Positions 2,424 to 24,384 of a stretch of DNA of 26,658 nt are shown here, in pieces. The stretch's first letter is position 1. Each line of letters starts with the position of its first letter. Source of the DNA: a virus; the IMG/VR virus record IMGVR_UViG_3300020166_000098, positions 1 through 26,658 of that record, one strand, 5' to 3'. The notes below the pieces were generated by a model, which saw only the letters and a program-made list of their open reading frames with translations, was not told the DNA's origin and did no database searches. Position numbers and translations under genes: made by a program.

Positions 2424-2898
2424 TTAATATAGTGTCTTCTGTTAATACTATAAAGTTCCAATTACGACCTTCACAATATTCTTTAGCAGCATTGTATTTA
2501 TCCATGTTTTTAACATATTGTTCTGCCAGAAATTTATAAGATTTTATAGCTTTTTTTGAATTTTTCTTAGGAGGTTCTGGTTTTTGAATTTGTGCCTTTG
2601 GTTTAATTTCAACTAAATATTCTTTATTAGAATTATCTTGTTGTTTTTGTTTAAAATAAAAATCAGGATAATATTTACGTGCCTTATTATCTTGCCTTGA
2701 CCAATATTTAATTTCAACAGGCTCACTTGACCAGCTTAATACTTTATCATTCATGTCACACCAGATACAGAATTTGCGCTCCCATGAGCTTCTGTATATA
2801 ATCGGAGTTGGTCCGATATATTTCTCAGGAAAGTTAGGAATAAAATAACCTTGATTAAATCCTGAGTTTTTAGTTGGTTTAACATTCTTTATTGACAT
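2410..2898 (-). CDS. gp4: Head completion protein (T4 gp4-like, nuclease fold)
   Basis: From the ATG at 2898 the protein is 162 residues, close to T4 gp4 (about 150). It carries the gp4 signature: a YIGPTPIIYRSSWE block, an RKYYPDFYF block and a LVEIKPK block. The Glu of SSWE, the Asp of PDF and the Glu-x-Lys of EIKP form a PD-(D/E)xK-like nuclease core, as known for this family. T4 gp4 acts late in head maturation, before tail joining. A longer reading frame from 3042 exists, but its first 48 codons lie almost wholly inside gp55. The start at 2898 falls one base after the gp55 stop and gives the expected length, so I chose it. The gene lies between gp55 and a conserved unknown. Confidence 0.85.
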   Translation of the reverse strand: MSIKNVKPTKNSGFNQGYFIPNFPEKYIGPTPIIYRSSWERKFCIWCDMNDKVLSWSSEPVEIKYWSRQDNKARKYYPDFYFKQKQQDNSNKEYLVEIKPKAQIQKPEPPKKNSKKAIKSYKFLAEQYVKNMDKYNAAKEYCEGRNWNFIVLTEDTILNGLR

Positions 2899-2899
2899 G

Positions 2900-3277
2900 T
2901 TATATTGTATAGATTCCAGACTGTTCTCCTCCTTTATCAGATCCGTATCCATCAATTGATATAGTTCCTTTATATTTTTGTGGATGAATTTTATTCCAAC
3001 CTTTGGCGTATCCTCTTTTTGCGATTTCTGTAAAATAAGCAAATGCGTTAGGGTATTTTGGATTAAAGTTTCTCCAATATTTAAGAAGATCTAAAATAGC
3101 AAACTGAAGGCAGTCATGTCTATCATCTTCATTAACATATCTCATCTTGTTTATTGCTTTTTCAGCAAGTAGAAGAAGCATCTTCTCCGCGGTCGGCGTA
3201 AGTGAGTCTTGTTCTTTTGAAAGACTCATTTCTGCGTGAAAGTCTTTGTTGTTAAGGTAATTCTTTTTACGTGGCAC
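2900..3277 (-). CDS. gp55: Late-gene sigma factor (T4 gp55-like)
   Basis: This 125-residue protein resembles the short gp55 sigma factors of marine T4-like phages. It has an N-terminal YLNNKDF segment, then LSKEQDSLTP, then EDDRHDCLQFA, and a final NAFAYFTEIAKRG helix that aligns with the NPHAYITQA region of T4 gp55. gp55 redirects host RNA polymerase to late promoters together with gp33 and the sliding clamp gp45. The start is GTG at 3277-3275, because an in-frame stop lies only two codons upstream; the alternative is Met17, which would remove the conserved N-terminus. T4 gp55 is longer (185 residues). The gene follows a strong terminator, so it needs its own promoter. A TATAAATA sequence abuts the start (see findings). 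Confidence 0.82.
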   Translation of the reverse strand: MPRKKNYLNNKDFHAEMSLSKEQDSLTPTAEKMLLLLAEKAINKMRYVNEDDRHDCLQFAILDLLKYWRNFNPKYPNAFAYFTEIAKRGYAKGWNKIHPQKYKGTISIDGYGSDKGGEQSGIYTI

Positions 3278-10771: not shown

Positions 10772-11872
10772 TTAATCTTCTGCTAACATTTCTTCAACAT
10801 CTAAATTTGCTGCTTCAGAATTATAATTAAATATTGGTTGAATGTGTTCTTCAATTCTCTCAAGAACTTCTTTAGTAAATACTTTATCTGTAAAAAAATC
10901 TTTGTTAGGAACTGCAGTATCTAAGTGTTCACAAATCCATCCTCTAGCAGTTGCCTTAGGAACTTTCTTTCCTTTTTCAATAGTTCCTCGTGTTATTCCA
11001 CAAATATCCCAAGTAGCATATTGTTCTAGTCCAACGTACGGATTCATACCTTCACTGAAATTTAAATGGAATTTAATAGGAGTTGGTTTTGCAAAACGAT
11101 TTTTTGAAGGCTTTGCAGTTACAATAATACCTACCTTATCAGCGCCATCTTTTAACTGTGCTTTATTTAACATTAACACAATTGAAGCAGCATATTCTGG
11201 ACCTGTTCCTCCACCTGCAATTTGCATAGGAATAAAAGATTGAGATTGATATGTGTGGTTTGTAAATATAAATGGAATTTTAAGATCCGCAAGAGGAGTC
11301 ATAATAATTCTAAATATAGATTTTAGTATTTTAGAACGTGTCATATCTGATTTTTCAGAACCGCTTGCAGCATCTGCGATTTCTTTAGCTGTTGCTAAGT
11401 TACCTGCAGAATCTAAGATAATCATAAGTTTAGGTATTTCTCCACCCTTTCTTTTGATTTCTTGCATTTTTTGTGTAATTGTTGTAATAGAAGTTCTAAA
11501 GTCTTGAACCGTATTCATTGGTTGATAATTTACTTTAGTAATATCAATACCGAATTTAATCATTTGTTCTTTATCTACCGCTGCTTCACTATCATAATAA
11601 ATTACATTATATCCCATGTTAATTGCCTCTCTAACGGAATTTAATGTAAGGAATGTTTTGCCAGTTCCTGAAGGACCTGCAACTGAGCATGATCTATTGT
11701 TAGGCCATCCTCCAAATAGAGAACCGCTGACACATGCATTCAAGTGATAGTTGTTGGTGTGAATCCACTCAGTAACTTCACTAAAATTAGATTGATCCAT
11801 TACAGATCCTAATGGATTTAAGTTTGCTAATTCAGCATTTAAATCATCGAATGTAAAATCTTTTTTAGCCAT
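10772..11872 (-). CDS. uvsX: RecA-like recombinase (T4 UvsX)
   Basis: This 366-residue protein is a RecA-fold strand exchange protein. It has Walker A GPSGTGKT (66-73), the IYYDSE strand (91-96), Walker B LMIILD (149-154), and a FTNHTYQ loop followed by the GGGTGPEYAAS segment typical of UvsX DNA-binding loop 2. The length is near T4 UvsX (about 390). The acidic tail NLDVEEMLAED is also usual. It coats single-stranded DNA and drives strand invasion for repair and replication restart, using the ends made by gp46/47. It overlaps the preceding 63-residue gene by 8 bases. No UvsY or gp32 homologue is evident in the window. Confidence 0.93.
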   Translation of the reverse strand: MAKKDFTFDDLNAELANLNPLGSVMDQSNFSEVTEWIHTNNYHLNACVSGSLFGGWPNNRSCSVAGPSGTGKTFLTLNSVREAINMGYNVIYYDSEAAVDKEQMIKFGIDITKVNYQPMNTVQDFRTSITTITQKMQEIKRKGGEIPKLMIILDSAGNLATAKEIADAASGSEKSDMTRSKILKSIFRIIMTPLADLKIPFIFTNHTYQSQSFIPMQIAGGGTGPEYAASIVLMLNKAQLKDGADKVGIIVTAKPSKNRFAKPTPIKFHLNFSEGMNPYVGLEQYATWDICGITRGTIEKGKKVPKATARGWICEHLDTAVPNKDFFTDKVFTKEVLERIEEHIQPIFNYNSEAANLDVEEMLAED

Positions 11873-12056
11873 TGTTTTTATTTTTATTATCTTTTATACG
11901 CATTTTATCAAGAGTTTCAATAAGATCGTGCGTTTCATCTTGTATTTCTGTCATCTGAGCCTTTAATACTTTAAGCCTCATGTGGAGTTTTTGATACTCT
12001 TGTACTTTTTTTAACTGTTCTTCAGTTAAATTTTTTGTTAATTTCTTAGGATCCAT
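11865..12056 (-). CDS. Small coiled-coil protein upstream of uvsX
   Basis: This 63-residue protein is almost entirely helical. From residue 8 to 53 it is a heptad-like charged helix (LTEEQLKKVQEYQKL and on through ETHDLIETLDKMR), followed by a Lys/Asn tail. The start overlaps the previous gene by 11 bases and its stop overlaps uvsX by 8. Its place just ahead of uvsX suggests a recombinase accessory role. It is far shorter than UvsY (137 residues) and I see no direct match, so no function is assigned. Confidence 0.6.
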   Translation of the reverse strand: MDPKKLTKNLTEEQLKKVQEYQKLHMRLKVLKAQMTEIQDETHDLIETLDKMRIKDNKNKNNG

Positions 12057-12231
12057 AATTTTCTAAATCTTGAAATATTGTTACTTGGTTAGGATTATAA
12101 CCATTTACTATTTCTGGTTTATTTTTATCTTCAATTTTATTAATTAAAGATCTTATAGAAGAACCGAGCTCCATGTTATTTGGCGTAGATTCTACAATAC
12201 TATGTACGATGTCGTAAAAATTTGCTTTCAT
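12046..12231 (-). CDS. Small hypothetical protein
   Basis: This 61-residue protein is not recognised. The N-terminal half is amphipathic helix (FYDIVHSIVES, then SIRSLINKIED) and the C-terminus is polar. The ATG follows the stop of the polymerase C-terminal gene by one base and its end overlaps the next small gene by 11 bases. Tight coupling on both sides supports it as real. No domain or catalytic residues are seen. Confidence 0.55.
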   Translation of the reverse strand: MKANFYDIVHSIVESTPNNMELGSSIRSLINKIEDKNKPEIVNGYNPNQVTIFQDLENYGS

Positions 12232-12232
12232 A

Positions 12233-13435
12233 TTAAAAAAGTGATGTTGAATAAATTAAGTTTCTGTTTAATGTTTGAAGACCTACTGCCTTCAACACTC
12301 TGTTTAACGGATCAATAACACTCTTTTCAAATTGTAATTCGTAATCAACTTCAGGTGCTATTTCGTATGGATGATCTCCTGGTAAATATGCAAACATGTC
12401 ACATGATAGATGTTTACAATGATATAATTTTAATTTCTCTCCATTACCAATCATCTTATATTTGTTTTTATATTTAGGAGATTGATTCATTAAGAAATTA
12501 TAAAATCCAGCAGCTTTAACATTAGGTGGGCATTTTAATCCAATTTGAAATTCAATAGTGTCATCAACAATATATTTTTCAATATTATTAGTTCTTTTAT
12601 TAAATGCTATTTGATCAATATCTGCCAGTTTAAATTCTTTTTTACCTTTCTTCAAATAATCTACCAGTTTTTTAAGCAGATCTGCCGTTGGTTTTTCAGA
12701 AAGAACTATCTTTAAAGCATCTGTTAAATGCTTACGAGCAAGGGCAGGGGTTGAAGATTGAATAGTATCAAATCCTATTGTTTTAATCTTTTTAAGAGAA
12801 GGATATCTATCATCTGTTTCCAATCTATCCTCCCACGCAATATTTTGTAAATATTTCTTTTTTGCTAACCATATACCGGAATATGCAACCGATTCTAATT
12901 CAAAGAATAAGAAGTTTTTGGTGTTAGTTACTTCAGCATATTTTGACATACACTTCGTAATGTAATCTTTAAGTCTAAATGTATATAAATCCATAATAAA
13001 CTTATCAATTGTAAGTTTGTTTGGACCTAACCATTCTATAGATTCATACATTTCTTCAAACTGAACATAACAAGAATCTGTATCAATGTATACTACAGAT
13101 GGTTTTACTAATTTATTTTTAATACTAATATTAAAATGTTCATGTGCAACCGTATCTTTTGGCCAAAACTCTTGAAAATATTTATTTAATATTTTTTCAG
13201 AATATAGGATAGCGCTCTGACCTTGTAACGTAATTGATTCTGCAATTTCAATATCGAAAAAGTGAAACCATTTATTACCAAATGCACCATAAATCGAGTT
13301 TAGTGTTACTTTAACGGCCTGCTCATACGCTGTGTATTTTGCAGACATTGTTTGATAATGATCAATCAATGTTTCAGTTTCTTGAACACTAAGCTCGCTT
13401 TCTGGCTTGTCAATAAGTTCCTGTATCTCTATCAT
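12233..13435 (-). CDS. gp43B: DNA polymerase family B, C-terminal half (split gp43)
   Basis: This 400-residue protein holds the part of a T4 gp43-like polymerase after motif A. It has motif B KVTLNSIYGAFGN (42-54; binds the incoming dNTP), motif C YIDTDS (116-121; catalytic Asp118 and Asp120), then the thumb. It ends in LIYSTSLF, which resembles the C-terminal SLF clamp-binding tail of T4 gp43. It has no exonuclease domain and no motif A; these are in the gene at 17354-18751. Residues 1-38 look like the returning helix of the fingers. The ATG at 13435 follows the clamp stop by a few bases. The two halves total 865 residues, against 898 for T4 gp43, so little is missing. Confidence 0.93.
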   Translation of the reverse strand: MIEIQELIDKPESELSVQETETLIDHYQTMSAKYTAYEQAVKVTLNSIYGAFGNKWFHFFDIEIAESITLQGQSAILYSEKILNKYFQEFWPKDTVAHEHFNISIKNKLVKPSVVYIDTDSCYVQFEEMYESIEWLGPNKLTIDKFIMDLYTFRLKDYITKCMSKYAEVTNTKNFLFFELESVAYSGIWLAKKKYLQNIAWEDRLETDDRYPSLKKIKTIGFDTIQSSTPALARKHLTDALKIVLSEKPTADLLKKLVDYLKKGKKEFKLADIDQIAFNKRTNNIEKYIVDDTIEFQIGLKCPPNVKAAGFYNFLMNQSPKYKNKYKMIGNGEKLKLYHCKHLSCDMFAYLPGDHPYEIAPEVDYELQFEKSVIDPLNRVLKAVGLQTLNRNLIYSTSLF

Positions 13436-13441
13436 TTAATA

Positions 13442-14197
13442 TTATTCAGCAGTTGAACAGGTCGCAATAGTTAATAGTGTTTCTGAATCATTAGATTTTA
13501 AAACAACTCTATTATCTAATACGTTTGCTGTATAATCTTCTTTATCTAAAAGATTTAAATATTTTTTAAATAATGTAACTTTTCCAGAAGAATCTCCATC
13601 ATAATCTGGAGTAACTAACATGTTGTATGTGTTTCCTGTTAATTTAACGCCTTTTCCGTTTGCTTCAATAGAAAAAGTTTCTTCTTTGTCTAGCCCAAAT
13701 AATGATTTTACTTTATTTAATGTAGTATAATCCATATCAAACTTATAGTTTGCGTCTTCTACATTAAAGATAGTTTTAATTTGAGTATCTGTAAGATCTT
13801 TATATCCTAAAGAGGGCTCTGAACATGCTAATGTAATTTCAAGCTCATCATTATAAATTCTAAAGCTTGTAGCAACGAAATCTTCTTCGTTTTCAATAAA
13901 CTCAAGTTCACCTTGGATAGAATCATACTCAAATTGCTTAAAAGCATCAGTTAATTTTTGAGCATCAAAGAAAGCAACTTTAAGTTCTTTATCTGTTGAT
14001 ATTGAACCTTCTTCGAGTTGGAAGACTTGACCAATTGGTAATCTATGGTGTTTTACCGCATCTCTTTGAGGTAAATAAGCCGAAGCCTGAACTACACCAT
14101 TTTTAATCTTGAAATAAACGAAAGTATCGATAACTTTAAGTCTATTGATGAAGTTGATAAAATTAGTTTGATCAACTTTGTTAATTGTAATTTTCAT
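13442..14197 (-). CDS. gp45: Probable sliding clamp (gp45-like)
   Basis: This 251-residue acidic protein is made of alternating strands and short helices in a repeated layout. An example is KLTDAFKQFEYDSIQGELEFIENEEDFVATSF-type helix-then-hairpin units. This is consistent with the two-domain fold of T4 gp45 (228 residues). It lies between ribonucleotide reductase and the polymerase C-terminal half, the position expected for a replisome gene. A clamp would tether polymerase, and in T4 it also activates late transcription through gp55 and gp33. The gene follows three tandem hairpins and a terminator, so it probably has its own promoter in 14198-14275; I see a TATAAT-like box near 14235 but no clear -35. 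There is no single diagnostic motif. Confidence 0.6.
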   Translation of the reverse strand: MKITINKVDQTNFINFINRLKVIDTFVYFKIKNGVVQASAYLPQRDAVKHHRLPIGQVFQLEEGSISTDKELKVAFFDAQKLTDAFKQFEYDSIQGELEFIENEEDFVATSFRIYNDELEITLACSEPSLGYKDLTDTQIKTIFNVEDANYKFDMDYTTLNKVKSLFGLDKEETFSIEANGKGVKLTGNTYNMLVTPDYDGDSSGKVTLFKKYLNLLDKEDYTANVLDNRVVLKSNDSETLLTIATCSTAE

Positions 14198-14275
14198 GAT
14201 ATTTATTTTTTAGTAACTTATTTGATTATTATAAGTAAATAATTTAAAAAGTTTCATATATATCCTTAAAATTCT

Positions 14276-14313
14276 AAAAAAACGAAGCCAGGAAGTAGCG
14301 AACTCCTGGCTTC
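14276..14313 (-). terminator. Rho-independent terminator downstream of nrdA
   Basis: On the minus strand a 10-bp stem GAAGCCAGGA / TCCTGGCTTC (14304-14313 with 14284-14293) with a 10-base loop is followed by a run of seven T (14276-14282). It is the third and last hairpin after the nrdA stop codon and separates nrdA from the clamp gene. Confidence 0.85.
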
Positions 14314-14317
14314 TAAT

Positions 14318-14362
14318 CCGAGAACTATCTCGGTCCTAAGGGTGGTCTTCAAACCACACCTT
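14318..14362 (-). other. Two tandem RNA hairpins in the nrdA 3' region
   Basis: Directly after the nrdA stop, a 9-bp stem with one bulged A (AAGG plus GTGGT, 14338-14346, with ACCAC plus CCTT, 14353-14362; loop six bases) is followed by a 6-bp stem CCGAGA/TCTCGG (14318-14333) with a four-base loop. Neither has its own T-run on the minus strand. With the terminator they make three hairpins in 87 bases. This could be an mRNA 3' stabiliser or a small RNA. Confidence 0.6.
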
Positions 14363-14367
14363 TATTT

Positions 14368-16197
14368 CTATCCGTCACAGCTTAAACAATCTGGATCTAT
14401 TGCTGACTGTGCGATATCCCCTCTTAATACTGATTCTGTTCTCATGTAATATAAGGTTTTAATTCCTTGTTCATAAGCTTCTAAATGAACTTGATTAATA
14501 AATTTAGGTTCTGCTTCTTTTGGAAATGCTAAGTTTAATGAAACTGCTTGATCAACGTATTGTTGTCTAATTCCACCCTGTCTTACAAGTTCTAATTGAT
14601 TAATTTCTTTAAATGTTTTAAAAATATCTTTTAAAGGAATATAATTTGATTGATCTTCTACTGGAACTTTTTCAATTTCTTTTTTAGTTAAAGGTTTTCC
14701 TGATCCAGATTCTAAAATTGTTTTTGTACCGATATTTACATAATAATTTTCAATCCAATCTAATCCTTGAATTGAACCGCCATCTTTTAAGATTTGTTCC
14801 CAAGTTTTTTTTGTATTTTTACCAATTGATTCTAATGTTCTTTCTAACGTTTGATTTTTTCTAATAAAAGTTCCTTTAGCGGTTTGCTCAGTAAAAACGT
14901 TTGCCGCCCATGGCTCAATACCTGGAGAAACATTCCCAGCTAATTTAGAATTAGAAACTGTAGGTGCAATAGCTCTTAAATGAGTGTTTCTCATACCAGT
15001 ACCTACGCACCAAAGAGGTTCTCCCATTTCAGTTGCCATATCTCTCGAGGCTCTTTCAGATTCAATCTTGATTTGTGAAAAAATCTTACGAGTTTCAAAC
15101 TGAGCAGTTAAACCTTCAAATGGAATATTTCTATCTTGTAAATATGTATGCCATCCAAGAACTCCTAATCCTAATGCTCTACCTTTTTCAGCAGAACGAA
15201 TTGAATTCTCAAATCCGCGCATATATTTTGCTTTTTGAATAAATTCTTCAAGAACTCCATCAAGGAACCAAGTTGCAGTGTATATTAAATCAGTGTCTTT
15301 CCATTCATCATATCTTGATAAATTAACTGAAGATAGACAACATACAAATGAATGGTTTTCATCAGTGTGCAATGTAATTTCAGAACAGATATTAGTCATA
15401 TAAACTTTTAATCCATTTTGTTTATATGCATCTGGATTCATTCTGTTAATATTTCCTTTAAACATGATATATGGTTCTCCAGTTGCTCTTCTTTTTCTAA
15501 TAACCGCTGTCCATCTTTTTCTTGCTTCTTTATCTCCTTCTTTTACTTTTTGCATAAAACCGTCAGAAACAACAACACATTGGTGAAGATTTAAAGACTG
15601 TCTATTAACATCACCTTTAGGTTCTCTAATTTCTAACCATTCCCAAAAATCTTTATGTTCAATATCTATATTAACTGACGCTGCTCCTCTTCTAACTGAT
15701 CCTTGATTAGTTGCAAGAATTGTTGAGTCGTATACTTTACAAAAAGGAACCACACCATCACTTGTACCATTTCCTCTTATTGTTGCTCCAGCTGGTCTAA
15801 TTTGATTTATACCGATACCAACACCACCTCCGTGTTTTGCAAGTAACATCATTTCTAGATTCTTTGCTCCAATGTCGTGTATTGAATCTGCAACATCAAT
15901 ACCAAAGCAACTTATTGGTAAACCTCTTTCTGTTCCTGTATTTGAAAGAACTGGACTTGCTAGATTTAACCAACCTCTCCAAATATAATCATAAAATTTA
16001 GAAGCCATTTCAGGTTTTTGTAACCTTTTAGCTACAGTGGTTGCAACTCTCCAATATGCATCTTTAGGAGTTTCTCCCTCTAATAAATATCCATTGCTTA
16101 TTGTTTTTACGTAAATTTCAGTATTTGCCCATGTTGGAAAATCAACTCCAAGTTCCCATCCTTGAAGTTCTCCGTGATTTAATTTTTCGCTACTCAT
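14368..16197 (-). CDS. nrdA: Class Ia ribonucleotide reductase, large subunit
   Basis: The 609-residue catalytic subunit makes dNDPs from NDPs. Conserved residues are Cys97 in ISCFG and Cys287 in CCLSSVNL (the active-site redox pair), the Asn269-x-Cys271-x-Glu273 triad with the thiyl-radical cysteine, the Tyr583-Tyr584 radical-transfer pair, and the C-terminal Cys604/Cys607 shuttle. E. coli NrdA is 761 residues. Here the N-terminal ATP-cone (about 90 residues) is absent, since the protein begins close to the ten-stranded barrel domain. Loss of the cone removes the usual dATP off-switch. It follows nrdB by 19 bases. Three hairpins lie after its stop. The pair sits between the two halves of the DNA polymerase gene. 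Confidence 0.95.
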   Translation of the reverse strand: MSSEKLNHGELQGWELGVDFPTWANTEIYVKTISNGYLLEGETPKDAYWRVATTVAKRLQKPEMASKFYDYIWRGWLNLASPVLSNTGTERGLPISCFGIDVADSIHDIGAKNLEMMLLAKHGGGVGIGINQIRPAGATIRGNGTSDGVVPFCKVYDSTILATNQGSVRRGAASVNIDIEHKDFWEWLEIREPKGDVNRQSLNLHQCVVVSDGFMQKVKEGDKEARKRWTAVIRKRRATGEPYIMFKGNINRMNPDAYKQNGLKVYMTNICSEITLHTDENHSFVCCLSSVNLSRYDEWKDTDLIYTATWFLDGVLEEFIQKAKYMRGFENSIRSAEKGRALGLGVLGWHTYLQDRNIPFEGLTAQFETRKIFSQIKIESERASRDMATEMGEPLWCVGTGMRNTHLRAIAPTVSNSKLAGNVSPGIEPWAANVFTEQTAKGTFIRKNQTLERTLESIGKNTKKTWEQILKDGGSIQGLDWIENYYVNIGTKTILESGSGKPLTKKEIEKVPVEDQSNYIPLKDIFKTFKEINQLELVRQGGIRQQYVDQAVSLNLAFPKEAEPKFINQVHLEAYEQGIKTLYYMRTESVLRGDIAQSAIDPDCLSCDG

Positions 16198-16216
16198 ATA
16201 TGTTTTTTAATGTCTT

Positions 16217-17230
16217 TTAAAATAATTCGTCTTCGTCCCAGTTCTCATCTTCACCTGCTTTTGAATAGTCGGTAGATCTTACTGCGAAAAAATCAGTATG
16301 TGTTTGTCCTCCTGTTAAATGATAAAACCAATCTAAATTAGATGCAGCATCTTCATCATATTTCATAAAAGGTCCCTTTGTATATCCTAATTCAGCTATC
16401 TTTTCATTAGCTCTTTTTAAAATAAATTGCTTTAAATGATCTGCTTTAAGATTTTCAAGATCTCCTTGTTCAAATATCATGTCAATAAATTTATGCTCCA
16501 TTTCAACCATTAATTGAGCTGCTTTAAGAACATCATCTTTTACATCATTATGTAATTCAGGATATTCTGATGTCATTTGTTTAAATAATTGACATCCCAT
16601 TTTTGAATGTAATGATTCATCTCTTACAGACCATTTCATTTGTTGTCCAATACCCTTTAACATGTTTCTCATTTGAAAAGAGTATAAAACAGCAAAAGAA
16701 CTATAAAGGCTTACTCCTTCAGCAAAAGCAGAAAAAATTGCTAAAGATCTAGCAACTTCTTTTCTAGCATTACTTTGTTCGGCTAAATCGCTATGTGTAT
16801 AATCAGCTGAGGTTGATGTTAATAATTCAAATTTTTCAGCAATTGTAGGTTCGTGTAAAAAAGCCGCAAAATCTTCTAATCCTAATGTTTCATTTAAATA
16901 AGAATAAGCAGTTGCGTGTATAGTTTCTTGTGAACCGAACATCATTGCCATTTGTTTAATCTCATGTTTTGGAAACCATTTTGTAACCATTGTTGTCCAG
17001 TAGTCAGAAACTGCACACTCAGTTTGTGCAAAACCTAAAAGAATATTTCCAACTAAATGTTTTTCTTCTGCTGTTAATTTTTCGTTCCAATCTTTGACAT
17101 CTCCTTGCATTGAAATTTCCGTATGTAACCAAAAGGCCTGTGCTTGTTTTAACCAACCTTCTGTATAATATTCCGGATATTCAAATGGTTTGAATTCTAC
17201 TCTTTCTATAAATAAATTTGAATTTTCCAT
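16217..17230 (-). CDS. nrdB: Class Ia ribonucleotide reductase, small subunit
   Basis: The 337-residue radical-generating subunit has the diiron ligands and tyrosine of class I enzymes: Glu71 (QTECAVS), Glu102 and His105 in QETIHATAY with radical Tyr109, Glu171 (FAEGVSLY), and Glu205/His208 in RDESLHS. The acidic, aromatic C-terminus (ENWDEDELF) is the type that docks onto NrdA. The Tyr is present, so a conventional tyrosyl-radical enzyme is expected. An A-run precedes the ATG and there is no Shine-Dalgarno site. It is transcribed ahead of nrdA. Confidence 0.95.
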   Translation of the reverse strand: MENSNLFIERVEFKPFEYPEYYTEGWLKQAQAFWLHTEISMQGDVKDWNEKLTAEEKHLVGNILLGFAQTECAVSDYWTTMVTKWFPKHEIKQMAMMFGSQETIHATAYSYLNETLGLEDFAAFLHEPTIAEKFELLTSTSADYTHSDLAEQSNARKEVARSLAIFSAFAEGVSLYSSFAVLYSFQMRNMLKGIGQQMKWSVRDESLHSKMGCQLFKQMTSEYPELHNDVKDDVLKAAQLMVEMEHKFIDMIFEQGDLENLKADHLKQFILKRANEKIAELGYTKGPFMKYDEDAASNLDWFYHLTGGQTHTDFFAVRSTDYSKAGEDENWDEDELF

Positions 17231-17266
17231 TTTTTTAGTTTTTTTTGCGTGTTTGTTTAGACTAAT

Positions 17267-17285
17267 AAAGGCCCTGTAAAGGCCT
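17267..17285 (-). terminator. Weak hairpin between polymerase N-terminal half and nrdB
   Basis: The 122-base gap 17231-17353 has a 5-bp stem AGGCC/GGCCT (17269-17273 with 17281-17285) and a 7-base loop, followed on the minus strand by TTTATTAG. The T-run is poor, so termination would be partial at best. The same gap holds a tandem CGATATG repeat near 17323-17338 and a palindrome (AGATAAT, TAT, ATTATCT; 17343-17359) over the polymerase stop codon. Confidence 0.3.
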
Positions 17286-17353
17286 CTGTGTCTATGATAA
17301 TAGATTTTATATATCTACTTACATATCGACCATATCGCCTATAGATAATTATA

Positions 17354-18751
17354 TTATCTTAATCTTTTTTTAAGTTTATCAGCTTTAGTAAAATAATCAT
17401 ACGACATTTTCTTATATTGTTTCCTCTGCGCATATAAATCTGTTAATATCTTTTTAAGAATGCTATCATCTTTCTTATAAACTACACCGTTATCACAAAC
17501 TATTACGTCTTTATCTTTACGTCGTTCTGCAACTTCAGTTTTATATACTTGCTCAATATAAGCGTCTGGTGATATATTAAATTGTCTCATAATTGAAGGG
17601 TACAGTGAAGCGAAGTCAAATGCACTTACACCTTCATAATATCCAACAATAGGTTCTTTAACAAATGCTCCAGCGTACTGTGAATTCTTTTCACTATCTT
17701 CTCTTCTTTCAGTTCCGATTCTCATGCCTTGTTCAGCAAGTTTTCTTGCCATCAAAGATTCAGTAACTGCCACTGGAGAAGCTGCTTTATATAACGGCAT
17801 TCTTGTTATATTTGCAAGTGTTAACAGAACTTCCATTGATTTTAACTTTTGATCAATATAATATACCAGCACTGAATCGACTACGTTATAATAAATATAT
17901 TTAACAAAATTATCTCTATATAAATCCTGTAGAGATCCTGTGTATTTAATCTTCTTTACGTTTAATACTTGACCTGAAACATAATCAAGTGCGTTAGATT
18001 CTTTTACTTTAACACTACGATCATATTTGTCATACAACTGCATGTAATCTAAAATTCCAATATGAAGAGGTCGAGAATCATTGCGATCTACCTTCTGAGT
18101 CATACCCACTTCAGTAATATCGATTTGAAGTCTTTTACATCGGTTTACAATATATTGCCAGTCATAGTTTATAAAGTTCCAGCCAGTCATCATTGGAAAC
18201 TTAGGTAAAAACTTCATTAAGAAAGTGTATACCATATCATACTCGGTATTAAACTTATGATATTTGAATTCCCAATCCTGATCAAAATCTTTGAAGTACT
18301 CATTAGTATCATCATTGATCTTTTTAATTTTATCAGGCGCCATGTCTTCCAATCCTAATACAATAGCCTTACGTTCTGGTGTAATAATTGAGAATGATAA
18401 AATTCTACTTTTTGCTTCTTCAGCTTTTGGAAAACCATCTACAATTTCAGTTTCAATATCGACAAAATACGTTTTAGGCATATTATATGCTAAAATTTCT
18501 TCTTTATCTTTTTCAGGTAATCCGTCTATGAAATAATTTAATGAAAATTTATTGAATTGTCTAGCGTTTCCTAGCTTTACAGGACGACCGTCCCAGTTTT
18601 TAAATTCTGTACTTACTCCTCTTTCTTTTTCATCACAAATATACCAGTTTTGGAATTGTGCAATAGGATATTGTTTATAAGCTACTTTACCTTCAGTGTC
18701 ATAATATGAAACGATAACATCGCGATCTCTTTGCTCAATATCTAATATCAT
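17354..18751 (-). CDS. gp43A: DNA polymerase family B, N-terminal half (split gp43)
   Basis: The 465-residue protein carries the N-terminal and 3'-5' exonuclease domains plus the start of the palm. Exo I is FVDIET (Asp98, Glu100), Exo II NFINYDW (Asp197), Exo III YNVVD (Asp292), and motif A DFASLYPSI (379-387, catalytic Asp379). It ends after RKQYKKMSYDYFTKADKLKKRLR, which corresponds to the outgoing fingers helix (the RKxxKxxM segment of other gp43 proteins). Motifs B and C are missing; they are in the gene at 12233-13435, 3.9 kb downstream. No intein motif is seen at the end. Its ATG overlaps the stop of the dUTPase-like gene by one base. Confidence 0.95.
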   Translation of the reverse strand: MILDIEQRDRDVIVSYYDTEGKVAYKQYPIAQFQNWYICDEKERGVSTEFKNWDGRPVKLGNARQFNKFSLNYFIDGLPEKDKEEILAYNMPKTYFVDIETEIVDGFPKAEEAKSRILSFSIITPERKAIVLGLEDMAPDKIKKINDDTNEYFKDFDQDWEFKYHKFNTEYDMVYTFLMKFLPKFPMMTGWNFINYDWQYIVNRCKRLQIDITEVGMTQKVDRNDSRPLHIGILDYMQLYDKYDRSVKVKESNALDYVSGQVLNVKKIKYTGSLQDLYRDNFVKYIYYNVVDSVLVYYIDQKLKSMEVLLTLANITRMPLYKAASPVAVTESLMARKLAEQGMRIGTERREDSEKNSQYAGAFVKEPIVGYYEGVSAFDFASLYPSIMRQFNISPDAYIEQVYKTEVAERRKDKDVIVCDNGVVYKKDDSILKKILTDLYAQRKQYKKMSYDYFTKADKLKKRLR

Positions 18752-19218
18752 TAATAGTTATTTTTCTGACGGTTAACATTCTCTTCTGCTTTTGCAAAAT
18801 AGTAATTGTACGCTGTTTTAGCATCTAGTCCAATTGAAGCGGCATAATTAATAAAGAAGTGTAGAATATCTACCCATTCCATATACAATTCTTTTTTGTC
18901 GCCTTCAGACATGTCAGAAATTTTTAACTTATCGTATTTAGTGAAGTCTTTTTTCCAGTATTTCCATACTGCATTACCGCTTCCGTCTTTAATACCACCT
19001 AAGGCATCAGTCATTTCATGAATTTCATCAACTACTGCATGTGTGTTACAGTGCCAAAATTCCATGATTTCTCTAATTGTCATATCATCAAAGTTAAAAC
19101 CATAAGTCTGCTCTTGCATCTTTTTCTGGTTTTCCATGATATCTGCTAAGTGTGTTGTTGAATCTTCATAAAAATCTTGTACTTTAAGATCTTTGCATTC
19201 GTTATCTATGTTTGCCAT
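18751..19218 (-). CDS. dUTPase/MazG-like all-alpha NTP pyrophosphohydrolase
   Basis: The 155-residue protein has the two acidic metal-binding helices of the all-alpha NTP-PPase superfamily: DEIHEMTD (Glu65, Glu68, Asp71) and EWVDILHFF (Glu114, Asp117). The AKAEENVNRQ tail matches dimeric dUTPases. It would hydrolyse dUTP to dUMP, keeping uracil out of DNA and feeding dTMP synthesis, or clean another non-canonical dNTP. It lies between the glucosyltransferase and the polymerase with one-base TAATG overlaps on both sides, so all three are coupled. The dimeric dUTPase call is favoured over MazG by the EWVDILHFF and tail motifs. Confidence 0.8.
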   Translation of the reverse strand: MANIDNECKDLKVQDFYEDSTTHLADIMENQKKMQEQTYGFNFDDMTIREIMEFWHCNTHAVVDEIHEMTDALGGIKDGSGNAVWKYWKKDFTKYDKLKISDMSEGDKKELYMEWVDILHFFINYAASIGLDAKTAYNYYFAKAEENVNRQKNNY

Positions 19219-20255
19219 TATTCGTTTATTTTAAAAGTTATATCTAATCTATCAAATAAGTTTCTTAATTCTTTCTTTTGTCTCGCAATTAAATCGTCTG
19301 AATAAGATGATACTAATTCTTGCACATCTTTCTTGGATTTTACATACAGTTTTTCTCTTAATATTGGGTCTTCAATAAGTTCCATCGATGGATCATATTC
19401 AATTTGAATAGCAGCTAAACAATCACTTGCCATTGTTTCATAAAATCTAAAAGTAGTTACATTATCTAAATGTTCTTCATCTCCTAATATTAAACTTGCT
19501 TTACTTTTTGAAATTGTTTCTAAAAGAGTTGAATGTTCCATTTTCTTTTCAAAAGAAGTTGGTACTTTTTTTGTTTTGTAACCAATTAAAAGGCTTTTTT
19601 CGCTATGAGGCATATATTTTCTAACCTGCTGTTCTCTAAAAGATGCTCGATTATCTCCATAGTAAATTGTGTCCCATTCTTTTTTAGGAGCATCAAAATC
19701 AAATAAGGCATTAGTTTGCTTGTTATCTAACTTGTCTGCCATTCGATGTTTAAACATGTAGGTAAACCAATCTAATTTTTCCCAGTTTTTAGGTGTTCTA
19801 CCTAAGAATTTACTGATGTCTTTACCCGGAAACAAATACGTTGCATTCTCGATTATCTCGGACCACTCTGCATCAAGATCTTGAATTAGATTAAATCTTT
19901 TCAATACTTTAACTGGGTTTAAGAAATCAATCCGAGGATCATTTACAAGTGTATAAATTTTACCAGCATATTCTGCCAGAGCTCTTGCAATTGGTTCAGT
20001 ATGATCACCAACTTTACCTCCAAAGAAATTAGCAGTGCTTAGTTGAATAAAAATTGCATCGTATGAAGACCAATCAGCCTTTGAATAATCTACATAAAAA
20101 TCTAAATCAGCGGTATTTCTGTTTTTCTTACCTATTAAATCTACAGTATACTCGTTTTCTTCTAATAATTGTTTAAAATAGGTTGCTTCTAATCCTCTAT
20201 GGTTTTTATTGTTGTATGTTAAGTTTGAGAATACTGACGTTATAGCTACTTTCAT
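19218..20255 (-). CDS. DNA beta-glucosyltransferase homologue (T4 BGT-like)
   Basis: At 345 residues it is nearly the size of T4 BGT (351) and can be aligned over most of its length. Matching blocks are NFFGGK (77-81), IYTLVNDPR where Asp106 falls on T4 catalytic Asp100, a DTIYYGD segment followed by Arg-rich residues as in the T4 UDP-binding region, ASLILGDEEH against T4 AALIIGD, and FYETMASD against T4 VWETMASD (the Glu that contacts the UDP ribose). T4 BGT transfers glucose from UDP-glucose to 5-hydroxymethylcytosine in duplex DNA, blocking restriction. Here the acceptor base is unknown, and no dCMP hydroxymethylase is in the window. It precedes the dUTPase-like and polymerase genes. The fold assignment is strong; sugar and base are inference. 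Confidence 0.85.
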   Translation of the reverse strand: MKVAITSVFSNLTYNNKNHRGLEATYFKQLLEENEYTVDLIGKKNRNTADLDFYVDYSKADWSSYDAIFIQLSTANFFGGKVGDHTEPIARALAEYAGKIYTLVNDPRIDFLNPVKVLKRFNLIQDLDAEWSEIIENATYLFPGKDISKFLGRTPKNWEKLDWFTYMFKHRMADKLDNKQTNALFDFDAPKKEWDTIYYGDNRASFREQQVRKYMPHSEKSLLIGYKTKKVPTSFEKKMEHSTLLETISKSKASLILGDEEHLDNVTTFRFYETMASDCLAAIQIEYDPSMELIEDPILREKLYVKSKKDVQELVSSYSDDLIARQKKELRNLFDRLDITFKINE

Positions 20256-22054: not shown

Positions 22055-22276
22055 TTAAAGTTGTTCAACTGCTGGGAAGTATTTTTCAATAGCCCCTAAT
22101 CTATCATCAGCATCTACCAACATCGCTAATGCTTCTTCAGCATTCGTGTAAAAATCGCCAGTTGAGTGATCTCCAATACCTGTTCCTTTATTTCCTAATA
22201 AATCTAAAGATAAAAGAGCTTTTGCTTTGTCAGCCTCGGCTGACGACTTAAGCATTTTAATTAATTTAATGTTCAT
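22055..22276 (-). CDS. 73-residue hypothetical protein
   Basis: The chosen ATG at 22276 forms an ATGA overlap with the RmlB stop. The longer frame from 22342 would run 70 bases into rmlB. The resulting protein has a helical start (MNIKLIKMLKSSAEADKAKALLSLDLLG), a GTGIGDHSTGDFYTN turn region and a second helix (EEALAMLVDADDRLGAIEKYF). I recall similar small proteins as conserved unknowns in marine T4-like phages, but no function is known to me. It is the last gene of the terminator-bounded cassette. Confidence 0.7.
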   Translation of the reverse strand: MNIKLIKMLKSSAEADKAKALLSLDLLGNKGTGIGDHSTGDFYTNAEEALAMLVDADDRLGAIEKYFPAVEQL

Positions 22277-23202
22277 AATTGTTCTTGTTTTAATGTATTT
22301 ACTTGTTCTAATAAAAATTCTTGAAAAGAAAGTGTTTCCCAATCTGAAAATATTTCTCTAACTCTATTTGAGTCTATTGCATATCTACGATCATGTCCTA
22401 ATCTGTCTTTAACAAATTCAAACTTAGGTGTTTTTCCTAACATTTCTCCGATCATGTTTATAATTTCTATATTTTCATATCTCTCTCCAGATCCGATGTT
22501 ATATACTTCACCTTCTAGATCTGACATCATTAATTCATATATAATTTGGACGTTATCTTCTGCGTCAATCCATTCTCTAACTTGCCTACCGTCGCCATAT
22601 ACTGGGATTGTTAAATCATTCGCAATAGATTTCATAATCTTTGGAATAAACTTTTCTTCATTCTGGTGATCTCCATAATTGTTACATGTTCTAGTAATTA
22701 AATATGGTAATCCAAAAGTTCGACCAGCTGCTTCAACTAAAAGATCACTTGACGCTTTAGATGCTGAATAATAAGAAGACGCTGTTAAATTATAGGCTTC
22801 ATTTGCTTCTGCTAATAATCCAATATCTGCCATATCTCCATAGACCTCATCTGTTGAAATATGTATAAATTTTTTAAGGCTAGAGTTTTGCCTTGCGCAT
22901 TCTAATAAATTAAAGGTTCCTTCGACATTAGTTCTAACAAATGGTTTTCCATCTTTTATAGAATTGTCAACGTGGCTTTCTGCCGCGAAATGAACAATGT
23001 AATCATAAGAACCTAAGTCCTCGGGGGTTACATCACATATATCCATTTTAATTAATTTAGTTGGTTTAATTATATTGTTAGGATCTGCCGCATAAGTCAT
23101 TTTGTCTAGAATGACTATTTCTGCATTAGGTAATCTTCTATTTAATAAATTTACAAAAGATGAGCCTATAAATCCGAATCCTCCTGTTACTATTATTCTC
23201 AT
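22273..23202 (-). CDS. rmlB: dTDP-glucose 4,6-dehydratase-like (RmlB)
   Basis: The 309-residue extended short-chain dehydrogenase has the NAD-binding GGFGFIGS loop (7-14), HFAAESHVDNSI (71-82) with the RmlB-type substrate residues, STDEVYG (116-122, catalytic Thr117, Asp118, Glu119), YSASK (Tyr145, Lys149), RTCNNYGDHQ (171-180) and VREW, and a RLGHDRRYAID tail segment. These are diagnostic of nucleotide-diphosphohexose 4,6-dehydratases, which make 4-keto-6-deoxy sugars. RmlB is usually 320-360 residues. The nucleotide could be dTDP or another. It overlaps the preceding transferase gene (ATGA) and the following small gene. No RmlA, RmlC or RmlD is in the window, so the host would supply or use the product. 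Confidence 0.9.
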   Translation of the reverse strand: MRIIVTGGFGFIGSSFVNLLNRRLPNAEIVILDKMTYAADPNNIIKPTKLIKMDICDVTPEDLGSYDYIVHFAAESHVDNSIKDGKPFVRTNVEGTFNLLECARQNSSLKKFIHISTDEVYGDMADIGLLAEANEAYNLTASSYYSASKASSDLLVEAAGRTFGLPYLITRTCNNYGDHQNEEKFIPKIMKSIANDLTIPVYGDGRQVREWIDAEDNVQIIYELMMSDLEGEVYNIGSGERYENIEIINMIGEMLGKTPKFEFVKDRLGHDRRYAIDSNRVREIFSDWETLSFQEFLLEQVNTLKQEQL

Positions 23203-23774
23203 GATTTTTCTAATAATTCTTTAATTGCTTTTTTATATTGTGCTTTAGTTAAATTGCCTTCAGCATGCTGTGCAATCTGATCTCTAATTGCAAGCATTAA
23301 TCTTTGATGTGATGTTTGATTATCCTCATTCTTAGCTCTATCAACTATTTCAGGGTTTTGCTTAATAGTTTGAACTGCGATAAGATCTTTTAATTTTGTA
23401 GTAGACCAATTATGAGATCTTGTCGTATATATTACTTTAGGAGGTAAATCATCCCCTGTAAATTTTTTACCAATATAGTCTTCTCCTAAAATTCTAATGT
23501 CTGGTTCATAAAATTTAATTAATTTAATTAAATCTTCTTCAGTTTGATATGTGATAACCTCATCAACATATTGTATTGCCATTAACGTTTTATATCTTTC
23601 ATATAAAGGCACAACAGGTTTGTATTTTGTAAATCTTGTTTCAGATGGATCTATTTGTAAAAAAACTATGAAATGATCACAGTGTTGTTTCGCAGTCTCA
23701 AAAGTGTAAATGTAACCTGGGTGTAGTAAATCAAAATTTCCGGCGGTAAACCCTATCTTTGTTTTAGAACTCAT
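23199..23774 (-). CDS. Cytidylyltransferase-like nucleotidyltransferase
   Basis: The 191-residue protein has the Rossmann-like nucleotidyltransferase fold of TagD, HldE and related enzymes. Seen are the NFDLLHPG segment (13-20), the YERYKTLMAIQYVDEV helix, a GEDYIGKKF segment (97-105) and an STTKLKD tail motif (124-130), matching the family's ISTTxIR. The HxGH motif is changed: His18 is kept but the second His is Tyr21 (HPGY). The last 60 residues form a helical extension not in TagD (about 130 residues). It would join CTP or ATP to a sugar or alcohol phosphate, giving an activated precursor. It is coupled by ATGA overlaps to the 78-residue gene and to rmlB. Activity with the altered motif is uncertain. 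Confidence 0.78.
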   Translation of the reverse strand: MSSKTKIGFTAGNFDLLHPGYIYTFETAKQHCDHFIVFLQIDPSETRFTKYKPVVPLYERYKTLMAIQYVDEVITYQTEEDLIKLIKFYEPDIRILGEDYIGKKFTGDDLPPKVIYTTRSHNWSTTKLKDLIAVQTIKQNPEIVDRAKNEDNQTSHQRLMLAIRDQIAQHAEGNLTKAQYKKAIKELLEKS

Positions 23775-24007
23775 ATATTAGATTTTTTAATATTTAAATA
23801 TAAATATAATTGTTTTGATATATCTTGTACAGTATCATCTGAATAAGTTTCATTTAGAGCTAACATTAAAACAAAATGATCTATCATGTGTTTTGCACCA
23901 TCTAAATGATCTTCATTGATACATGAGTCAACTACTTTGATTATTTTTTGAACAGCATCGTCTGACCAAGTTTCGTAATTATCTGGTTTGAATAAAAAAT
24001 TCATCAT
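23771..24007 (-). CDS. 78-residue hypothetical protein
   Basis: This acidic, helical protein is unrecognised. It begins MMNFLFKPDNYETWSDDAV with a Met-Met start, and has a repeated-looking element: SDDAVQKIIKVVDS near residue 15 and SDDTVQDISKQLYL near residue 56. These two related helices may be a tandem duplication. It overlaps mgsA at its start and the transferase gene at its end, so it is embedded in the cassette and translationally coupled. Confidence 0.65.
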   Translation of the reverse strand: MMNFLFKPDNYETWSDDAVQKIIKVVDSCINEDHLDGAKHMIDHFVLMLALNETYSDDTVQDISKQLYLYLNIKKSNI

Positions 24008-24384
24008 GTTTGTTGCGTTTTTAAATATTTTATTAAGTAGCTAGCTGTTTTATAGTTTGTTGCTAGAGGAACATTGTGAACATCACATAGTCGCATTAGC
24101 ATAGAGATATCTACATCATGCGGGTGCTTGTCTAATGGGTCTCTAAAAAAGATAACCAAATCTATTTTACCCTCTGTTACCATTGCTGCAATCTGTGCAT
24201 CTCCACCTAGGGGACCCGATTGAACTTTAATAACATTAGAAATACCAGCATGTATCACATGTTTACCAGTAGTTCCTGTTGTTACAATTGTCGTATCTTC
24301 TCTATTAAAGAACGGTAATCTCTTTTTCACAAACGCTACCATATCAGCTTTTTTGTTGTCATGTGCTATTAATGCAATTTTCAT
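24004..24384 (-). CDS. mgsA: Methylglyoxal synthase
   Basis: The 126-residue enzyme matches bacterial MgsA (E. coli about 152 residues), lacking its N-terminal extension and C-terminal tail. It would convert dihydroxyacetone phosphate to methylglyoxal and phosphate. Conserved are AHDNKK (His8, Asp9, Lys12), the phosphate-binding TTGTTG (35-40), SGPLGGD (Asp62), FFRDPLD (Asp82) and HPHDVD (His89, Asp92). These align with E. coli His19, Asp71, Asp91, His98 and Asp101, so the catalytic set is complete. A stand-alone domain rules out PurH or carbamoyl-phosphate synthase fragments. The gene opens the terminator-bounded cassette; its ATG lies 13 bases past the T-run of the terminator at 24398. The biological reason for it in a phage is unknown. 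Confidence 0.92.
   Translation of the reverse strand: MKIALIAHDNKKADMVAFVKKRLPFFNREDTTIVTTGTTGKHVIHAGISNVIKVQSGPLGGDAQIAAMVTEGKIDLVIFFRDPLDKHPHDVDISMLMRLCDVHNVPLATNYKTASYLIKYLKTQQT

Follow-up and report, generated by a model that had tools for sequence, protein, structure and literature searches.

A T4-type DNA polymerase gene divided at the tip of the fingers and kept as two open genes in a clade of large phages

Replicative DNA polymerases are textbook single catalytic chains. The stretch of viral DNA analysed here in its entirety (the window, a 26.7 kb metagenomic fragment of 26,658 nucleotides) encodes a family B polymerase (PolB) of the T4 gp43 type which is not a single polypeptide: it is divided between two open reading frames, polN and polC, which are separated by 3.9 kb and three genes. 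Is this gene broken, or do its two parts encode the subunits of one enzyme? The explanation that we favor, and hold to be very probable, is that polN and polC encode two subunits of one replicative gp43-type PolB, whose gene was cut (most simply once), has been kept cut, and was fused again in one case. The features of the window are as follows.

200-1795, open reading frame: portal gene (identity by Pfam)
10772..11872, minus strand: uvsX recombinase, downstream of polC (PF00154, 1e-12)
12233..13435, minus strand: polC, 400 aa, C-terminal half of the polymerase (phrog_1918, 8.3e-70)
13442..14197, minus strand: probable sliding clamp, 251 aa, PCNA/beta-clamp fold in the predicted structure
14267..14367, minus strand: conserved three-hairpin RNA element, directly after nrdA and before the clamp gene
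14368..16197, minus strand: nrdA, ribonucleotide reductase (RNR) large subunit, 609 aa (PF02867, 3.6e-88)
16217..17230, minus strand: nrdB, RNR small subunit, 337 aa (PF00268, 2.3e-56)
17231..17353, minus strand: gap of 123 bases between polN and nrdB
17354..18751, minus strand: polN, 465 aa, N-terminal half of a T4-type PolB (phrog_2062, 2.6e-82)
18751..19218, minus strand: MazG-like nucleoside triphosphate pyrophosphohydrolase, directly upstream of polN (phrog_173, 5.8e-13)

Domain matches and motif alignment show that polN contains the 3'-5' exonuclease, palm motif A and the first fingers helix, while polC supplies motif B within the second fingers helix, motif C of the palm (YIDTDS) and the thumb. 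The assignment to the T4-type PolBs rests on PF03104 and PF00136, on phrog_262, which matches both halves, and on the aligned motifs A, B and C; the DNA_pol_B_exo1 domain of Pfam is also present in polN. The Pfam DNA_pol_B profile is matched at positions 17-137 by polN and 151-237 by polC, and the two proteins therefore continue each other. In phmmer alignments to RB69 gp43, residues 161-448 of polN correspond to 185-487 and residues 21-315 of polC to 540-814, so that the missing part is little more than the tip of the fingers. The break maps by alignment to T4 position 501/502, between motifs A and B. The initial annotation had described a gp43 split in the fingers, with the exonuclease and motif A on one side, motifs B and C and the thumb on the other, and little lost at the junction since the halves add up to 865 residues (465 + 400, versus 898 for T4 gp43). 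Both open reading frames, the aligned motifs and the RB69 alignments bear this out.

Each gene would produce its own chain, and the chains would meet across the fingers hairpin and the palm with no covalent joint. Of the key residues, motif A's catalytic aspartate and a conserved arginine in the first fingers helix are on chain N, and the motif B lysine and the DTDS of motif C are on chain C; we take their roles to be the same as in RB69. Since motif A is on one chain and motifs B and C are on the other, neither chain alone should polymerize, but the 3'-5' exonuclease activity may persist on chain N. We infer that the chains assemble, that the assembly is active and that it serves in replication.

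The split is conserved. The arrangement of two halves flanking nrdB, nrdA and the clamp gene is found in 102 loci (101 from the clade of the window and one sister, L146), a count in which one contig can appear twice. When L142 and L146 are set aside, the remaining 100 loci correspond to 46 distinct protein pairs, and the split is kept in all 46; the clamp is found in 45/45 with a relaxed boundary and in 29/45 with a strict one. Among wider loci, some of which are the same contigs, the N half occurs without the C half in the same frame in 149 of 150. No intact PolB, nor any open reading frame covering both polymerase parts, was found in the 16 records searched, 8 of which are large relatives (133-236 kb). 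Some records (9/25 in one set, 2/5 in another) showed an N half but no C half, and may be fragments: no C half was found in the 288 kb record G009, yet its N half has 100% identity to that of LR756504, a record of 636 kb in which the C half is present. Both halves are under strong purifying selection, their pooled dN/dS (0.047 for polN and 0.044 for polC) being lower than those of uvsX (0.064) and the clamp gene (0.053).

The window is only a metagenomic fragment, but damage, whether a decay to a pseudogene, a frameshift error or a faulty assembly, is barely conceivable as the cause of the break given the same break in 46 distinct pairs whose halves lie at least 3.6 kb apart with open genes between them, the dN/dS below 0.05 in both halves, the presence of motifs A, B and C, and the lack of an intact PolB in the records searched. 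The conservation in 46/46 pairs and the low dN/dS rule out a pseudogene or an assembly error; nothing points to the latter, and the earlier view, in which the split is fixed and functional and not recent damage, is supported.

The survey of relatives extends the shared split point to a deep clade. All 13 aligned split polymerases of this clade break at about T4 501-523, at the tip of the fingers, and the same break is seen in the phages PAU, MA9V-2, pT24, PTm1 and Lak and in phages of 462-735 kb. Five huge phages encode their halves on opposite strands, at distances of 101-618 kb. Positions 11000-20000 of the window have no match in annotated phage DNA at megablast sensitivity. A scan of bacterial and archaeal genomes returned just six distant PolBs (two from Woesearchaeota, three from Photobacterium, one from Thermoplasmata), so that the host was not found.

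Could the two chains be rejoined into one covalent polymerase, by trans-splicing through a split intein or a split group I intron? Apparent split inteins do interrupt motif C of polC in LR756500, PTm1, Lak-A1, Lak-B5 and L142, and the 43B gene of an Aeromonas phage is annotated with a group I intron. However, motif C is a second site, the only one at which intein-like sequence is seen in relatives, and the break in the window is not that of a fractured gene with a split intein: its halves contain no Pfam intein domain at E 0.001 and the window has no Rfam match at gathering scores, which led us to reject an intein or intron at this place. Moreover, polN ends and polC begins inside fingers-like sequence, and the halves of the five huge phages are far apart on opposite strands. 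Rejoining is therefore very improbable.

It is also improbable, to a somewhat lesser degree, that the two-chain enzyme is real but serves for example as a repair or proofreading factor while another polymerase replicates the genome. In favor of this, Iyer et al. (2021) describe a minimal PolIII alpha, itself split, that accompanies PolB in the group 2.2 jumbo phages, which include Lak and PTm1 (PMC7824862). Against this, polC is surrounded by the clamp gene, uvsX (PF00154) and a DnaB-type helicase gene (PF03796), and the selection on the halves is as strong as on their neighbors. Putative gp46/47 genes lie further along from polC.

Split PolBs are known. Aeromonas phages 25 and 44RR have a gp43A and a gp43B. 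In phage 25, these are separated by the same cut at the fingers tip (T4 510/511, compared to 501/502 in the window), and the text of the study reports that 43A and 43B co-purify and have polymerase activity (PMC2988022). This split has a separate origin, as the trees join phage 25 to T4 (100/100) and place it apart from the clade of the window. According to the annotation of phage 25, a homing endonuclease gene separates its halves and 43B contains an intron, whereas the window has nrdBA and the clamp gene. That a homing endonuclease now fills the gap in the window is ruled out, since nrdB, nrdA and the clamp gene are the only same-strand open reading frames of at least 60 aa there. Pseudomonas phage MIJ3, as described in PMC6892783, resembles the window in encoding its PolB in two pieces, in that case with an intein. 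The PolB of Methanothermobacter thermautotrophicus also consists of two polypeptides, as mentioned in PMC7776575, but is archaeal.

Closer to the window, Sphingomonas phage PAU (gp105 and gp110), Chryseobacterium phage MA9V-2 and Tenacibaculum phages pT24 and PTm1 belong to the same clade and have the same break, with other genes between the halves. Their annotations list most of these parts as DNA polymerase genes in their own right. PTm1 has a second break, at motif C, and its gp239 is annotated as an "intein-containing split DNA polymerase precursor". Split PolB proteins have already been clustered, since the halves in the window match phrog_2062 (N half) and phrog_1918 (C half), both described only as "DNA polymerase", over nearly their whole length. 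The initial annotation was aware of no report of this exact insertion; none was found in our literature searches, although split phage PolBs as such are already in print. What is new is an old, clade-wide bipartite PolB.

The trees favor one old split and one natural re-fusion as the history of this clade. The sequence L204 is a one-piece polymerase of 950 aa, whose N and C parts are 43% and 56% identical to the LR756504 halves. It joins LR756504 at 100/99 and is nested in the split clade, so its intact gene reads as a re-fusion. An intact relative might have spoken against a fixed split, but this one lies inside the split clade. Placing L204 outside that clade is rejected on both halves (AU p = 2e-51). 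With the N halves alone, holding L204 outside is not rejected (p = 0.078), while holding out both intact sequences, L204 and MaF61, is (p = 0.0005). MaF61 has a long branch: two trees place it within the split clade (91/93 and 98/90), and in a third it is at the base of the clade, without a resolved placement. A single origin of the split that excludes MaF61 is not rejected (p = 0.123 and 0.454). A search of viral contigs for more intact MaF61 relatives gave one stretch that matched a pattern, and no relative.

An unlikely but still arguable history is that of many separate cuts at the fingers tip within the clade, L204 and MaF61 having kept the uncut gene. The tip is a demonstrated hot spot, and the same cut was made independently in Aeromonas phage 25 and in cyanophage-like phages. 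Indeed, L151 and L152 are also cut there, and are placed by the trees among intact cyanophage-type genes; the open reading frame that splits them has no Pfam match but resembles (E 1e-7) an HNH-like frame found in fractured nrdA genes. The position of MaF61 in two trees, and the gene neighborhood of L204, which is like that of the LR756504 C half, also suit this history. It requires, however, several independent cuts at the same place, and it conflicts with the grouping of L204 with LR756504 and the rejection of its outside placement, the N halves alone excepted.

A single old split remains the simplest account. The gene would have been cut at the fingers tip in an ancestor of the large jumbo/huge phage clade and maintained under purifying selection, and its halves would have fused again in one sampled lineage. 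The fusion in L204, which links the two chains, counts in favor of two subunits.

Most named members of the clade are recorded on Bacteroidota. It seems likely that an obligate two-chain replicase, produced by one cut, has existed in these phages since before their radiation, that the halves drifted to opposite strands and to distances of hundreds of kilobases, that split inteins at motif C gave a third piece in several lineages, that one re-fusion occurred, and that in the lineage of the window the gap became a landing site for swaps of whole RNR pairs between phages, with the polymerase halves as recombination anchors. If so, an active site whose motifs A and C belong to two independently encoded chains would show that a cut at the fingers tip can persist through evolution, can recur and can be undone. 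Such enzymes would offer a natural test of fingers closing with a cut hinge, and parts for split-polymerase engineering; some PolB genes of huge phages that are called "truncated" or "partial" may belong to complete enzymes encoded by two or three genes.

The initial annotation placed nrdB, nrdA and a clamp gene between the halves. The reductase genes are confirmed by the large-subunit barrel (PF02867 with PF00317) and by PF00268, but the clamp holds at the level of the fold and not of the sequence family. Neither Pfam nor PHROG gives a match to the clamp product at 0.001, and LR756500 gave the only match at E up to 1 in a sequence search among phages. Its predicted structure (mean pLDDT 74) is matched by Foldseek to PCNA and beta clamps (best E 4.9e-9, probability 1.00), with a poor global superposition (TM about 0.35, rmsd 15-17 Å), which supports the name "probable clamp" for the fold only. 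The MazG-like gene is a recurrent neighbor of polN, and uvsX likewise follows the intact gp43 of cyanophage-type relatives.

The proposal that the three intervening genes stabilize the split finds no support: other genes are there in PAU, MA9V-2 and pT24, the halves are unlinked in the five huge phages, and one locus, L314, has the clamp gene alone between them. The nrdBA pair is swapped as a cassette between the halves, being replaced in place by unlike RNR pairs among relatives; in the lineage of the window, the space holds the clamp gene and such an exchanged pair. The HNH-like frame lies inside a fractured nrdA in L073, L076, L114 and L142. In the L073 frame, the only one given a Pfam search, HNH (20.4 bits) and intein (30 bits) domains both score below the curated cut-offs.

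Scans of the window for a promoter consensus (41 sites, 43.8 ± 5.4 in shuffles) and for terminator-like sites (3, versus 2.4 ± 1.6) gave nothing above chance. A terminator-like hairpin is present in the polN-nrdB gap of 19 of the 46 distinct relatives. With its RNR swaps and its new RNA element, the locus lends itself to work on how phages exchange modules. The element matches no Rfam family at its gathering score; its third hairpin, at 14313-14284, is followed by a U tract.

The window, an IMG/VR fragment of 26,658 bases, encodes a T4-type family B DNA polymerase (gp43-type PolB) as two separate genes, polN and polC. The features discussed here are the following.

17354-18751, minus strand: polN, N-terminal half of the polymerase, 465 aa
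between polN and polC, minus strand: nrdB and nrdA (the ribonucleotide reductase, RNR, pair) and a 251-aa gene (probable sliding clamp)
14267-14367, minus strand: three-hairpin RNA element, directly after nrdA and before the clamp gene
12233-13435, minus strand: polC, C-terminal half of the polymerase, 400 aa

The split of gp43 around nrdB, nrdA and the clamp gene, proposed in the initial annotation, is real: the ORFs lie at these places and their Pfam and PHROG coverage is complementary. The Pfam DNA_pol_B profile is matched over positions 17-137 by polN, which also carries the exonuclease domain, and over 151-237 by polC; phrog_262, the intact PHROG family (856 long), is covered by polN from 90 to 495 and by polC from 490 to 843. 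The window halves also match two half-length PHROG families, phrog_2062 and phrog_1918, over nearly their full length, and Pfam confirms the identities of nrdB and nrdA. Alignment with RB69 gp43 pairs residue 487 with polN 448 and residue 540 with polC 21. In a combined alignment, the halves join at T4 501/502, which we take to be the fingers tip, where two antiparallel helices meet. polN carries motif A (FDFASLYPSI) and, in the first fingers helix, the QRK; polC carries motif B (KVTLNSIYG) and motif C (YIDTDS). If the residues have the same roles as in RB69, two chains share the pair of catalytic aspartates and the residues that bind the triphosphate.

Most likely, polN and polC are made as separate chains, which would join at the palm and along the paired fingers helices to give one replicase, presumably working with the 251-aa clamp. 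The closest experimental support for such an assembly comes, by analogy, from Aeromonas phage 25: its 43A/43B break is equivalent to that of the window, and 43A and 43B co-purify and polymerise, according to passages of PMC2988022.

Viral contigs were scanned with each half, and the best 80 loci were taken from each scan (L001-L159). Matches to both halves are found in 118 of 166 loci; 16 of these are cyanophage-like or annotated phages, and the other 102 are 101 members of the window's clade and the sister locus L146. In all 102 (one contig may count twice), the halves enclose nrdB, nrdA and the clamp gene, always in this order. Without L142 and L146, which were excluded by name, 100 loci remain; they represent 46 distinct protein pairs, each of them split, with a stop codon for the N half and a start codon for the C half. 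The pooled dN/dS (Nei-Gojobori, over the 14, 12, 14 and 14 of 15 pairs with usable dS) is 0.047 for polN, 0.044 for polC, 0.064 for uvsX and 0.053 for the clamp gene. By the evolutionary measures tested, the split PolB of the window is thus functional rather than damaged, as first proposed.

The survey of related genomes showed that the split is kept, and that it is older and wider than the initial annotation supposed. Whole records searched with phrog_262 gave matches in 16 of 16 and a single ORF spanning both parts in none, so that no intact PolB was found in these records. Eight IMG/VR relatives (133-236 kb, some mutually close) have one N part and one C part each. Each of the eight also has a separate ORF of 241-265 aa that matches the PolB profile over its exonuclease region (e.g., G002:C1:34184-34627). 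In five huge phages, the halves are on opposite strands and, in record coordinates, 132 kb (LR756502), 101 kb (LR745206), 618 kb (LR756501), 281 kb (LR756504) and 223 kb (Lak-A1) apart, the Lak-A1 record being circular and the others linear. The matched parts are separated by 2.5 kb in Sphingomonas phage PAU, 3.7 kb in Chryseobacterium phage MA9V-2 and 1.5 kb in Tenacibaculum phage pT24, with other genes between, and the polymerase of Tenacibaculum phage PTm1 is in three pieces.

Two further scans with alignments, best 80 each, gave loci L202-L351, some on contigs already met. The N half ends without an in-frame C half in 149 of these 150 loci, and in 146 no more than 11 residues of the ORF follow the model match. 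In L238, L261 and L268 the best match ends at model position 281-282; the roughly 260 residues that remain are too few for a C half. The lone exception is L204, with an intact polymerase of 950 aa. Searches of whole records found a C half in 16 of 25 (one being L204's own) and in 3 of 5. The records without one may be fragments; one of them, of 288 kb, has the same N half, residue for residue, as LR756504 (636 kb).

A second break, precisely at DTD/S of motif C, interrupts the C half in LR756500, PTm1, Lak-A1, Lak-B5 and L142 (loci L162, L166, L172, L196 and L142), the last a member of the window's own clade. This interruption reads as a split intein, with three genes for one enzyme, because of the PTm1 annotation, the mutual likeness of the cases and the published case of MIJ3, whose split PolB has an intein (passages of PMC6892783).

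Long branches that meet are flagged in the trees that follow. In a 46-row tree, 29 splits of the clade and MaF61, an intact Flavobacterium phage enzyme, form one clade (100/99), outside which fall the other intact polymerases, among them the T4, Vibrio and cyanophage enzymes. The enzyme of Aeromonas phage 25 groups with T4, and L151/L152 lie within the cyanophage group; the fingers tip has therefore been cut at least three times. MaF61, on a long branch, is inside the split clade (91/93; 98/90 with N halves), and a tree in which the 29 splits group to its exclusion is not rejected (p = 0.123). With 37 concatenated rows, MaF61 is at the base, its placement unsupported, and L204 pairs with LR756504 (100/99) in an 8-row clade (100/100) whose other members are all split. 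On these rows, a position outside the splits is rejected for L204 (p = 2e-51) but not for MaF61 (p = 0.454); the weaker tests on N halves alone give p = 0.0005 for both intact rows outside and 0.078 for L204 alone. Most simply, the gene was cut once, after the divergence of MaF61, and fused again once, in the line of L204.

The intact gene at L204:8998-11847, amid split ones, is apparently a natural re-fusion. Six ORFs that flank it also occur around the C half of LR756504, and two of the six lie near the N half of L203 as well, which suggests that the N half may have moved to the C half. In the cyanophage-like L151, L152 and L153, gp43 is split independently at the same fingers tip, and L151 and L152 have an HNH-like ORF of 232-237 aa between the halves.

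The idea that the three intervening genes hold the split in place did not survive, since the RNR pair is exchangeable and PAU, MA9V-2 and pT24 have other genes there. The window's RNR type (nrdA at least 70% identical) occurs in 26 of 46 distinct clade loci, and a different type (38-40%) in 20. L019 and L022 share 95.7% (polN) and 92.8% (polC) identity, and 37% (nrdA) and 28% (nrdB). Likewise, L146 and L288 share 92% and 89% in polN and polC and 26% in nrdA, with no match in nrdB; conversely, L019 and L288 are just 50% identical in polN, and 89% and 91% in nrdA and nrdB. Like halves with unlike RNR, and the reverse, indicate that nrdBA is exchanged as a unit in the slot between the halves. Unlike types are substituted in place, flanked by polN and polC, in L019, L022, L146, L288 and L289. 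In the wider set, 45 loci (32 distinct) contain the two halves within the stretch; nrdA is present in 44 of these, nrdB in 42, the clamp gene in 45 and all three in 42, counted with a relaxed boundary.

The nrdA-clamp interval holds up to five extra ORFs (at least 50 aa) in many clade loci. These are variable (e.g., L066:14630-15934); in a cluster of 28, the longest member starts like MKHIKLFEQF, as do several other ORFs. This start presumably resembles the T4 capsid-targeting leader, and such ORFs perhaps encode packaged proteins. In L073, L076, L114 and L142, nrdA is fractured, with an HNH-like ORF within; in L073, the Pfam matches to an intein splicing domain and to HNH stay under the curated cut-offs.

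The RNA element carries a nearly invariant TTAGGACCG motif and a TTCGCTAC loop. It follows nrdA in 46 of 46 distinct loci (exact loop in 45, one mismatch in L135) and accompanies either RNR type, the L019 and L022 copies being nearly identical despite differing nrdA. Rfam has no family at gathering score at 14267-14367, and a model search of 68 loci gave more than 50 bits in 39 and two weak matches (L169, L204). In an alignment fitted to the model, and so biased in the element's favour, double-sided changes occur at 12 of 14 pairs. There, pairing holds in 93.1% of cells, compared with 67.6% after shuffling, and covariation scores 0.689, compared with 0.250 after shuffling and no more than 0.251 in slid controls; neither value is reached in any of 500 shuffles. 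Two other measures are within the shuffles: pairs with double-sided change (291/500) and further pair types (85/500). The last hairpin and its U tract form the longest of three terminator-like sites found, a number no greater than expected by chance. In a separate scan, made without shuffles, such sites follow nrdA in 42 of 46 relatives and occupy the polN-nrdB gap in 19 of 46, so polN and clamp-polC may be separate transcription units.

Split PolB as a kind is already known. Passages of the respective papers describe Aeromonas gene 43 (PMC2988022, PMC2993671), an archaeal PolB of two polypeptides (PMC7776575), Jug phages, in which endonucleases often split DNA polymerase genes (PMC12363816), and OM43 phages with split polymerases, whose family may not be PolB (PMC10580990). 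Passages on jumbo phages report a split PolIII alpha and mention no split PolB (PMC7824862), those of two polymerase surveys no phage split (PMC7544198, PMC11348598), and those on a large-phage lineage list two DNA-directed DNA polymerase families without comment (PMC12619734). The words "split" and "intein" are absent from a text on Lak phages (PMC8346664), as is "split" from a jumbo phage review (PMC13282480). In the literature searched, partly as passages and with most subscription papers outside the search, we found no description of a clade-wide bipartite PolB or of nrdBA and clamp between the halves, an insertion for which the initial annotation also named no report. Judged by these searches, what is new is the fixation across a clade, the unlinking, the re-fusion and the cassette slot.

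The label "clamp" stands at the level of fold but not of sequence family: the 251-aa gene matches no Pfam or PHROG family, and its sole relative among annotated phages at E up to 1 is in LR756500. Foldseek matches of its AlphaFold model (9 rows, mean pLDDT 74) are PCNA and beta clamps (best E 4.9e-9, probability 1.00), with a TM of just about 0.35 and an rmsd of 15-17 Å.

Elsewhere on the minus strand of the window, 19218-20255 encodes a T4-type beta-glucosyltransferase (PF09198, 2.2e-9), a hint that the DNA is glucosylated. An MGS-like domain protein, an NAD-dependent epimerase and a cytidylyltransferase-like protein (24004-24384 and 22273-23774) are metabolic genes close to the replication block. 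A TnsA-like endonuclease N-terminal domain (PF08722, 1.7e-18) is encoded at 2410-3042, close to the portal gene.
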